NCBI GenBank assembly: GCA_016342355.1
Contig: JAEINP010000009.1
Span: forward strand, 1-64,000
DNA: 64,000 nt
DNA from: Desulfatibacillum sp.
GTDB lineage: Bacteria > Desulfobacterota > Desulfobacteria > Desulfobacterales > Desulfatibacillaceae
Direction of reading: 5' to 3'
The position numbers and the translations under genes were made by a program. The notes below the pieces were generated by a model. The model was not told the origin of the DNA. It saw only the letters and a program-made list of their open reading frames with translations, and made no database searches. Shown piece by piece: positions 30,326 through 32,157 of this stretch. Within the stretch, counting starts at the first letter, position 1; every line of letters starts with the position of its first letter.

Positions 30326-30961
30326 ATGATTTCAGAAATGCTTTATACTACGTATTTTGAACATCTTTTGAAGGGCCGGAGAGCCGAGTGCGCCCGGATA
30401 GTCCAGAGCCTGCTTGATCAACAAATTGATATTAAAAAACTTTATGAAGATCTATTTCAAAAAAGCCTTTATGAAGTGGGCCGACTTTGGGAAACCAACA
30501 GGATTTCTGTCGCCAGGGAGCATTTGGTTACCGCCATGACGGAAGGCCTCCTGAATCTGGTCTATCCTACCTTGTTTCTGGGAAAAAAAATCAATAAGAA
30601 AGTCGTGATTTCTTGCGCCGCCAATGAGTTTCATCAGATTGGCGGCAAAATGGCGGCGGACATATTTGAAATCCATGGCTGGGATTCCCATTTTTTGGGC
30701 GCCAATACTCCTTTGGATCAACTGCTTACTTTTATAGACGAGGTGAAACCGGATCTTGTTGGCATGTCTTTGAGTGTCTATTTCAACATGCCCTCATTGA
30801 TAGAGGGCATAGAGGCGATAAGATCTGCGTTTGGCGATCTTGATATCGCCGTGGGCGGACAAGCCCTCAATTGGGGAGGCTTGGACAGAATTGCAAAGTA
30901 TTCCAATACGGTTTGTATTCGTTCTATGGTGGAACTTGAAGATATTTTTAAATCGTCATGA
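30326..30961 (+). CDS. free-standing B12-binding protein with CarH-like motif
   Basis: A 211-residue protein with a helical cap domain (about 1-85) and a Rossmann-type cobalamin domain (about 90-210). The cap has Trp55 followed after nine residues by Glu65-His66, the W-x9-E-H motif of light-sensing AdoCbl proteins such as CarH. The lower ligand His103 is in EFHQIG, an E-x-H-x-x-G motif. The position after Trp55, which in Thermus CarH holds the second cobalt His, is Glu here. There is no MerR DNA-binding domain. It starts a three-gene set with a PAS protein and an unknown protein. It is a candidate B12 photoreceptor, redox or oxygen sensor. A corrinoid methyltransferase carrier is the main alternative, but no methyltransferase is nearby. 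Confidence 0.82.
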   Translation: MISEMLYTTYFEHLLKGRRAECARIVQSLLDQQIDIKKLYEDLFQKSLYEVGRLWETNRISVAREHLVTAMTEGLLNLVYPTLFLGKKINKKVVISCAANEFHQIGGKMAADIFEIHGWDSHFLGANTPLDQLLTFIDEVKPDLVGMSLSVYFNMPSLIEGIEAIRSAFGDLDIAVGGQALNWGGLDRIAKYSNTVCIRSMVELEDIFKSS

Positions 30962-30985
30962 ATCAAAGAGTGTCTGGGGGGGGCA

Positions 30986-31591
30986 ATGAGTTCCGAGACG
31001 TTTTATGAGTACATAAATGATTACGCGCCTGTCCTTTTTTTCAGGCTTGACCGCGAAGGACGTATTTTGTCAACGAATCGCTATGCCCGTCAAATTTGTG
31101 GCGATCTACCCACTGAAACACGATTCCAGGAAATTCTAATAGATTTTCAAGCGCTGTTTGACTTTAAAAATATGACAGACAATCCTTCGGGCAAAAGGTT
31201 ATTCAGCATCAAGACCGTTTCCGGTTTTCCGCACAGCTATCTGTTCGTGTTTAAAAATATTGGAGAGGAGACTTTGGCCTTTGGCCATTTTGATCTGGAA
31301 GATATTGAATTACTGCGGACTGAGGTCCTTTCGCTAAACCAGGAATTGGGAAATCTGACACGCAGTCTGCATAAAAAAAATGCGGAACTCAAATATGCCC
31401 TGGATCACGTGAAAACCCTTCAGGGTATCATTCCTATTTGCATGCACTGCCATAAAATTCGGGACGAAAAGCAAATCTGGGACAGGCTCGAAAAATATTT
31501 GACGGAACGTACAAGTGCGGAGTTAAGTCATAGTATATGCCCGGAATGTATGGAAAAATACTATCCTGAGCTACACGATGAAGATTTCTGA
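30986..31591 (+). CDS. PAS domain protein with C-terminal Cys-rich module
   Basis: A 201-residue protein. A PAS-like domain (about 8-105, FFRLDREGRILSTNRYARQIC) is followed by a coiled coil (about 108-145, EVLSLNQELGNLTRSL). The C-terminus has PICMHCHKIRDEKQIWDRL and SHSICPECMEKYYPE. The two C-x2-C pairs could bind a metal. This C-terminal module is common at the end of PAS proteins and response regulators; its role is not established. The ATG follows GGGGGGGCA. It starts 24 bp after the B12 protein and likely shares its transcript, so it may relay the B12 signal. Confidence 0.8.
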   Translation: MSSETFYEYINDYAPVLFFRLDREGRILSTNRYARQICGDLPTETRFQEILIDFQALFDFKNMTDNPSGKRLFSIKTVSGFPHSYLFVFKNIGEETLAFGHFDLEDIELLRTEVLSLNQELGNLTRSLHKKNAELKYALDHVKTLQGIIPICMHCHKIRDEKQIWDRLEKYLTERTSAELSHSICPECMEKYYPELHDEDF

Positions 31592-31686
31592 TTCAGTTGT
31601 CTCCGGCTATCTGCCGTTTTTTTGGGTTTAGCATCTAATCTTGCATCGTAAAAATGGAGCATTAATTAGAAATTTTGGAGGGTGTC

Positions 31687-32157
31687 ATGAAAGAGCGGCT
31701 TGTAAATACAGCTTCAGAGCTTGTCCAGCCTTCACAATCAGCGGTCCAGGCCTTTTCTCAAAAGCGTGATCAACTGTCCGCCAAGGGAAATCAAATAATG
31801 GGAGAACGTCAAGACCTGGAAAAGCTGCTGGGGCCTGGCAATGTGCGGATGGCGGAAGACAATAACCGCAATTTCGCCAGATTTATGGAATCCATGTTTC
31901 TGGAATACGACCCAAAGGTATTGGTGGAAACCGTGCTGTGGGTTTTTCGCGCCTATCGGTCTCATGGTTTCCAAACAACCTACTGGGCGGCCAATCTGAA
32001 TATTTGGGTTGGCATGATCAACCAGGAGCTTCCAAGGGAAACCTTTGAAGCCATTTACCCCTTTTATAACTGGCTGATTGTCAATATTCCGATTTTTGTT
32101 AAACTCACCGAGGAAAATTGCGGGGATTGTTCCTCAGAAGGCATCCCCGCACATTGA
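31687..32157 (+). CDS. unrecognised mostly helical protein, third of the B12/PAS set
   Basis: A 156-residue protein of unknown family. The first 50 residues are polar and Gln-rich. The rest is predicted to be helical with many aromatics, including VETVLWVFRAYRSHGFQTTYW and YPFYNWLIVNIPIF. It ends with ENCGDC. The pattern loosely resembles globin-like or four-helix sensor domains, but no family signature was recognised. The ATG at 31687 has GGAGGGTG upstream; an earlier TTG overlaps that site. It follows the PAS gene by 95 bp. Composition is AT-rich like its two partners. It may bind a cofactor or be the output of the set. Confidence 0.65.
   Translation: MKERLVNTASELVQPSQSAVQAFSQKRDQLSAKGNQIMGERQDLEKLLGPGNVRMAEDNNRNFARFMESMFLEYDPKVLVETVLWVFRAYRSHGFQTTYWAANLNIWVGMINQELPRETFEAIYPFYNWLIVNIPIFVKLTEENCGDCSSEGIPAH

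Follow-up and report, generated by a model that had tools for sequence, protein, structure and literature searches.

Organization and composition of the locus

The analyzed stretch of DNA (referred to here as the window; 64,000 nucleotides from Desulfatibacillum sp.) contains a triad of same-strand open reading frames (ORFs), arranged head to tail and separated by gaps of 24 and 95 bases. The genes and a nearby signal are as follows:

30326..30961, + strand: gene 1, stand-alone B12-binding protein with helical B12-binding_2 and Rossmann B12-binding domains, 211 aa
30986..31591, + strand: gene 2, putative divergent PAS domain, conserved coiled coil and Cys4 module, 201 aa
31687..32157, + strand: gene 3, predicted photoglobin-type non-heme globin, 156 aa
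30121..30151, + strand: candidate terminator-like hairpin of 14 pairs, found by a consensus scan 3' of the thiolase gene

The start of gene 3 is placed at an ATG that has GGAGG 5' of the codon; the mechanically delimited ORF begins with the TTG at 31675. Upstream of the triad lies a run of acyl-CoA ligase, nitroreductase and thiolase genes, and the hairpin candidate stands between the last of these and gene 1. Genes 1, 2 and 3 have GC contents of 43.7, 42.1, and 47.6% (window ORF mean, 55.7 ± 3.5%) and GC3 values of 47, 45, and 52% (window ORF mean, 65.6 ± 6.3%), which bears out the original prediction of an AT-rich composition unlike that of the neighboring genes. This AT-richness, combined with the upstream hairpin candidate, suggests that the triad is a separate unit, probably acquired by horizontal transfer. 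As also predicted, the ORF list and Pfam searches reveal no methyltransferase in the genes flanking the triad on either side; Pfam detects no B12 synthesis or transport genes among its immediate neighbors.

In D. alkenivorans, the triad likewise lies 3' of a ligase/nitroreductase/thiolase run and is followed by a partial second copy. This tandem B12-PAS copy (locus L040:8849-10101; also L075) has its B12 frame split in two and lacks a second globin, so that it represents either a decaying recent duplication or a sequencing error.

The B12-binding protein

The product of gene 1 matches the Pfam domains B12-binding_2 (PF02607, E value of 1.2e-14) and B12-binding (PF02310, E value of 2.5e-14), both far above the cut-off, and contains no MerR domain recognizable by Pfam, in agreement with its initial description as a free B12-binding unit. 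Two cofactor-binding motifs can be read directly from the sequence:

30488..30523, + strand: W-x9-EH adenosyl-pocket motif, codons W55 to H66
30626..30643, + strand: E-x-H-x-x-G, codons E101 to G106, including His103, the predicted lower cobalt ligand

The residues W55, E65, H66, E101, H103, and G106 occupy exactly the places initially assigned to them and are invariant in all 14 aligned sequences; given that these are 30 to 76% identical to gene 1, the motif is not due to chance. The best PDB sequence matches are the photocobilins 8j2w, 8j2x, and 8j2y (E values from 7e-17 to 4e-16), with CtMerR, corrinoid proteins, and CarH ranking lower. Light-responsive B12 domains carry the four-part signature GxxW/EH/GxxH/GxxxP (PMC11796333). 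Three of these four parts are present in gene 1, and the glycine of GxxH is replaced by Asn100 (NxxH).

In a maximum likelihood tree of 62 B12 domains, the branch that divides 47 W-x9-EH proteins (from the window, split, fused, and photocobilin) from 15 other corrinoid proteins has support values of 100/99; the motif itself is found in 47 of 47 members of the former group and in none of the latter. Clustering of gene 1 with methanol/methylamine corrinoid proteins, named at the outset as a result that would speak against a sensor, is therefore not seen. Phyla are intermixed within the gene 1 clade, a pattern that horizontal transfer would produce. The NCBIfam CarH model (NF052513) gives 49.3 bits against a cut-off of 400 and the DNA-binding domain is absent, which rules out a CarH-like repressor. 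The supply of adenosylcobalamin (AdoCbl) in the host is likely because the window's genome encodes the CobA/CobO cob(I)alamin adenosyltransferase.

The PAS-coiled-coil protein and its Cys4 module

Gene 2 had been described as a PAS/coiled-coil/Cys-rich protein. The coiled coil and the C-x2-C pairs are real and conserved, but the PAS match stays under the cut-offs: TIGR00229 gives 17.5 bits against 22.9, and Pfam PAS_8 is also below threshold. Conservation in the PAS-coiled-coil (PAS-CC) proteins is highest in the coiled coil, with N118 retained in 99%, R126 in 100%, L128 in 96%, and L135 in 100% of 71 sequences. The coiled coil is likely to serve as the reading surface. The conserved C-x2-C...C-x2-C arrangement forms a C-terminal module, delimited with a profile of 10 sequences:

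31418..31570, + strand: Cys4 module of gene 2, PICMHCHKIRD...SHSICPECMEKYYP

This module is present in 9 copies in the window's genome, always at protein ends, with the consensus LPICxxCKKIRDDxGYWxxxExYIxxHxxxxFSHGICPxC. The parts N-terminal to it are GAF, PAS, membrane, or response-regulator regions, mostly with a coiled coil (domains assigned by eye in loci L164 to L171 and the window). Searches of Pfam and PDB with the module returned no match. The Cys4 module is thus a common uncharacterized signaling module; most likely, it binds zinc and acts as a contact module relaying the signal to a partner encoded elsewhere, which is the weakest link in the mechanism proposed below.

Identity of the globin

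Gene 3 had been viewed as a helical protein of no recognized family. It is indeed helical, and Pfam, NCBIfam, and PDB sequence searches all returned no match, with nothing credible found in PDB by a profile of the gene 3 branch, either. However, it is not an orphan. The AlphaFold model, built from six sequences, is a confident globin (pLDDT of 90.9). In VIA-align comparisons, it shows Z scores of 13.7 with smURFP, an engineered biliverdin-binding phycobiliprotein, 13.3 with the EcDosC globin, about 12 to 13 with allophycocyanins, and 11.7 with the photocobilin globin domain 8j2x. Heme globin-coupled sensors score equally with bilin globins, a comparison in which the fold alone fits both classes.

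The profile of the gene 3 branch matches a set of six photoglobins (A5, globin domains taken from B12-fused proteins of relatives, together with the 8J2W domain) with an hhalign probability of 95.5 and an E value of 1.6e-8. Pfam Phycobilisome (PF00502) matches 5 of these 6 photoglobins and, above the cut-off, none of 13 members of the gene 3 branch. The profile match and the Phycobilisome matches of the set together place gene 3 in the photoglobin/BBAG-2 lineage, in which, by sequence profile, it forms an outlying branch of non-heme globins. Its link to the photocobilin globins depends on the intermediate photoglobin group, because the direct match to the actinobacterial photocobilin globins alone is weak (probability of 2.4%, E value of 0.019). 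The predicted F helix (residues 76 to 92) contains no His; the nearest one, His93, is replaced by Arg in 10 of 93 homologues.

Conserved linkage and gene fusions

Scanning GTDB genomes with the globin branch revealed 80 loci in Desulfobacterota, Bacteroidota, Planctomycetota, SAR324, Myxococcota, Acidobacteriota, one archaeal metagenome-assembled genome (MAG), and others. Sulfate reducers, Bacteroidales, cable bacteria, and MAGs from mats or sediments make up most of the carriers. With profiles built in this analysis, globin, B12, and PAS-CC genes were found within 3 kb of each other in 48 of the 51 loci whose flanks reach at least 2.5 kb in each direction. The proposed co-occurrence of the three families, and with it the idea of a non-DNA-binding, B12-based sensor triad that behaves as a conserved unit, has therefore held up. 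Among 71 complete sets, the order is B12-PAS-globin in 30, B12-globin-PAS in 21, globin-B12-PAS in 19, and different in 1. Near the globin, B12 and PAS-CC genes occur at 0.21 and 0.22 per kb, respectively, compared to 0.005 and 0.007 per kb farther away in the same loci; since the PAS-CC profile was built from globin neighbors, this 30- to 40-fold enrichment shows linkage rather than independent discovery. As outputs, PAS-CC parts are joined to a histidine kinase in 56 cases, to GGDEF in 7, and to the Cys4 module in 6.

In a genome of the same family and at least 6 others, the globin and the B12 domain form one chain, globin first, and the next gene encodes a PAS-CC-GGDEF protein. Natural fusions of this kind are a classical indication that the separately encoded proteins work together. 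The best solved structural relative of a fused homologue is the photocobilin 8j2w (Z score of 25.8), although the domain order of the homologue is reversed relative to that of 8j2w. Plasmid pILYOP01 of the anaerobic fusobacterium Ilyobacter polytropus (L161:4425-6468) encodes a globin-B12 fusion and, after it, a GGDEF protein of the PAS-coiled-coil type, which makes this cultured organism a model for the fused form. Genome G053 carries two copies (L043 and L044) of a globin/PAS-GGDEF/B12 set, with one of the globins apparently frameshifted.

Globin pocket and pigment supply

In the photocobilin SasPcob, Asp270 anchors biliverdin through its A, B, and C pyrrole rings and Trp296 contacts the corrin and bilin ring D; a His in place of Asp270 reduces affinity in AbPcob (PMC10979010). 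Profile alignment assigns the following codons of gene 3 to these two positions:

31861..31863, + strand: N59 codon, aligned with the biliverdin-holding Asp270 of SasPcob
31939..31941, + strand: W85 codon, aligned with Trp296 of SasPcob

Both residues are invariant in the branch, with Asn and Trp, respectively, in 93 of 93 homologues, while the photoglobin group that matches Phycobilisome and 8j2w have Asp at the position equivalent to N59. The alignment of N59 with Asp270 is based on profiles and spacing (26 residues to the Trp in both proteins), not on a solved structure. The 8J2W globin sequence was recovered via a Streptomyces homologue, with SasPcob numbering equal to the chain index plus 6, as checked on Trp61 and His108. 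SasPcob His137 aligns with Gln132 of gene 3.

Neither heme oxygenase nor bilin reductase is encoded in the window's genome, whose completeness the tool puts at 100%, and bilin reductase is absent from all 34 genomes carrying the globin branch that were searched for it. As for ChuW/HutW as an anaerobic source of bilins, this candidate was rejected, the only strong radical-SAM match being HemW (TIGR00539, 269 bits). Heme oxygenase, searched for without the IsdG and HugZ families, is absent in 52 of 57 genomes carrying the globin branch, including the host, and present in 5; many of these are MAGs of unknown completeness, so that its absence in any single MAG carries little weight. It is found in 1 of the 16 carriers with a completeness of 90% or more and a contamination of 5% or less, and the baseline for the phylum is 4 of 297. 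Such globins generally accompany heme oxygenase (PMC10151467), a rule from which the carriers of this branch depart. Given the carriers without heme oxygenase and the invariant Asn at the biliverdin-Asp position, the pigment of the gene 3 globin may have been lost or exchanged.

Three loci (L069:112-1392, L155, and L156) contain heme oxygenase ORFs of ∼430 aa whose C-terminal extension looks globin/BBAG-like on visual inspection; the gene 3 globin branch is present in the same genomes. In genome G394, one extended heme oxygenase ORF adjoins a stop-interrupted remnant of this branch.

Proposed mechanism and alternative explanations

The triad is probably related to the photocobilin light sensor, with the parts divided among three proteins. 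CarH and photocobilin (PMC10442372, PMC10979010) serve as the models from which we infer AdoCbl binding, light as the stimulus, complex formation, and the direction of signaling. In the dark, the gene 1 protein would take up AdoCbl in the base-off form via His103, with the adenosyl group packed onto Trp55, and would dimerize via Glu65-His66, while the gene 3 globin would cap the exposed corrin edge via Trp85. Light, probably green, would cleave the Co-C bond; the adenosyl group would depart, the Glu65-His66 helix would shift, and the B12/globin assembly would be remodeled in its shape or oligomerization. The gene 2 coiled coil would sense this change and relay it to the output. In most relatives, the output is a GGDEF domain or a histidine kinase; in this host, it would be the Cys4 module. 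A stand-alone photocobilin activates a diguanylate cyclase in trans, and photocobilin fused to such an enzyme drives it in cis (PMC10979010); the trans-activation is a direct precedent for triad signaling through contacts. Several observations count against a photocobilin-like sensor. Besides the NxxH element, the missing biliverdin-holding Asp, and the genome without heme oxygenase, these include the replacement by Glu56 of His132, the second ligand in CarH (photocobilins lack that His, too), the fold that leaves bilin and heme globins undivided, and the sub-threshold PAS call. Further, CarH requires O2 for full conversion to the light state (PMC10442372), which counts against such a sensor in an anaerobic genus like Desulfatibacillum.

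The same requirement could itself be the signal, if anaerobic photolysis halted at Co(II) and only O2 drove the full switch, warning the cell of lit, oxic conditions. CarH without O2 yields a stable Co(II) intermediate (PMC10442372), and the mainly sulfate-reducing, sediment- or mat-associated carriers listed above fit this light-and-oxygen (redox) sensing, but the light-state ligations of SasPcob and CtMerR are different (PMC10979010, PMC11796333); we regard it as possible though somewhat doubtful, and as a refinement of the photocobilin-like explanation, not its opposite. Were light incidental, the triad could report corrinoid availability, with AdoCbl-bound assemblies differing from apo assemblies and AdoCbl distinguished from other corrinoids. 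A ligand-level readout is possible in principle, as CarH forms tetramers with AdoCbl only and not with OHCbl or MeCbl (PMC10442372). However, the strictly kept adenosyl-pocket motif and a photoglobin that always accompanies it point to photochemistry, and the immediate neighbors of the triad include no genes for B12 synthesis or transport, making this explanation unlikely.

Alternatively, the globin could sense heme or a gas in the manner of globin-coupled sensors, and the B12 protein could supply a second input. This would account for the structural scores, but it is improbable in view of the His-free F helix, the variable His93, and the profile match to photoglobins that themselves match Phycobilisome; a heme globin is accordingly disfavored, even though the fold alone would permit it. 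Least probable is a role of gene 1 as the corrinoid protein of a methyltransferase system. It belongs to the same B12-domain superfamily and weakly matches the NCBIfam models pyl_corrinoid, MtgC, MtbC, and MtaC, all far below the cut-off, but no methyltransferase adjoins it, and the tree and the motif speak strongly against a methyl carrier of the MtaC/MtbC/MttC type.

Returning to the photocobilin-like sensor, a more specific version can be put forward tentatively, with slightly less than even confidence. The globin would be a photoglobin that has moved off biliverdin, through the invariant Asp-to-Asn change, in mostly anaerobic bacteria without heme oxygenase, and would serve, in apo form or with another ligand, as a subunit of an AdoCbl-based receptor for light (or for light plus oxygen) that acts via the dedicated PAS-coiled-coil adaptor on interchangeable outputs, including Cys4.

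Comparison with known systems

Photocobilins (SasPcob and AbDPcob) similarly pair a B12 domain carrying the W-x-EH and E-x-H motifs with a photoglobin domain and regulate signaling enzymes (GGDEF) in cis or via protein contacts (PMC10979010). Gene 1 fits the general photocobilin pattern of W-x9/10-EH plus E/D-x-H. Photocobilins are further characterized by binding of both AdoCbl and biliverdin and by a change from dimer to monomer in the light. In contrast to their single chain, the window encodes the B12 protein and the globin in separate genes, the latter two genes on; Trp296 is kept as W85, whereas Asp270 and His137 are changed to N59 and Gln132. The triad also differs in its PAS-coiled-coil partner, which nearly always adjoins, and in its host without heme oxygenase. 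BBAG-2 globins, two tested members of which bind biliverdin, are likewise encoded by separate genes next to B12-binding genes (Rockwell et al. 2023, PMC10151467). They accompany heme oxygenase and partly pre-PcyA, unlike the gene 3 branch with its 52 of 57 genomes without heme oxygenase and 0 of 34 with bilin reductase. Because of the photocobilin-diguanylate cyclase systems described in 2024, acting in cis and in trans (PMC10979010), and the BBAG-2 globins found beside B12 proteins in 2023 (PMC10151467), the original prediction that a B12 sensor working through protein partners would be new no longer stands. CarH/LitR AdoCbl photoreceptors share the W-x9-EH and E-x-H-x-x-G pocket of gene 1 but have the MerR DNA-binding domain and His132 that it lacks, in line with its low NCBIfam CarH score.

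The triad would extend B12-based light sensing to a widespread multiprotein, two-component-like form in anaerobes, where light sensing has been little studied. It also raises the question of which ligand is used by a phycobiliprotein-type globin in a host unable to make bilins by heme oxygenase. A receptor divided in this way, with outputs that can be exchanged, would lend itself to the design of green-light tools controlling kinases or cyclases.

The coupling of photoglobins to B12 domains in light sensors is known; the triad would be a novel form of it in that it is spread over three proteins, one of them a PAS-CC partner of its own, has an altered globin pocket, occurs without heme oxygenase, and uses Cys4 as its output. 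Schneider et al. 2022 reportedly surveyed photoglobin domain architectures and neighborhoods and may have priority for the linkage itself. Like other photoglobins, gene 3 encodes a non-heme globin of phycobiliprotein kin tied to B12-binding and signaling domains; its branch differs from them in having no Pfam Phycobilisome match and in the Asn at the ligand-Asp position. A second photoglobin group (loci L047 to L051), which retains the Asp, matches Pfam Phycobilisome, and is fused N-terminally to B12 domains, occurs in the same order of sulfate reducers.
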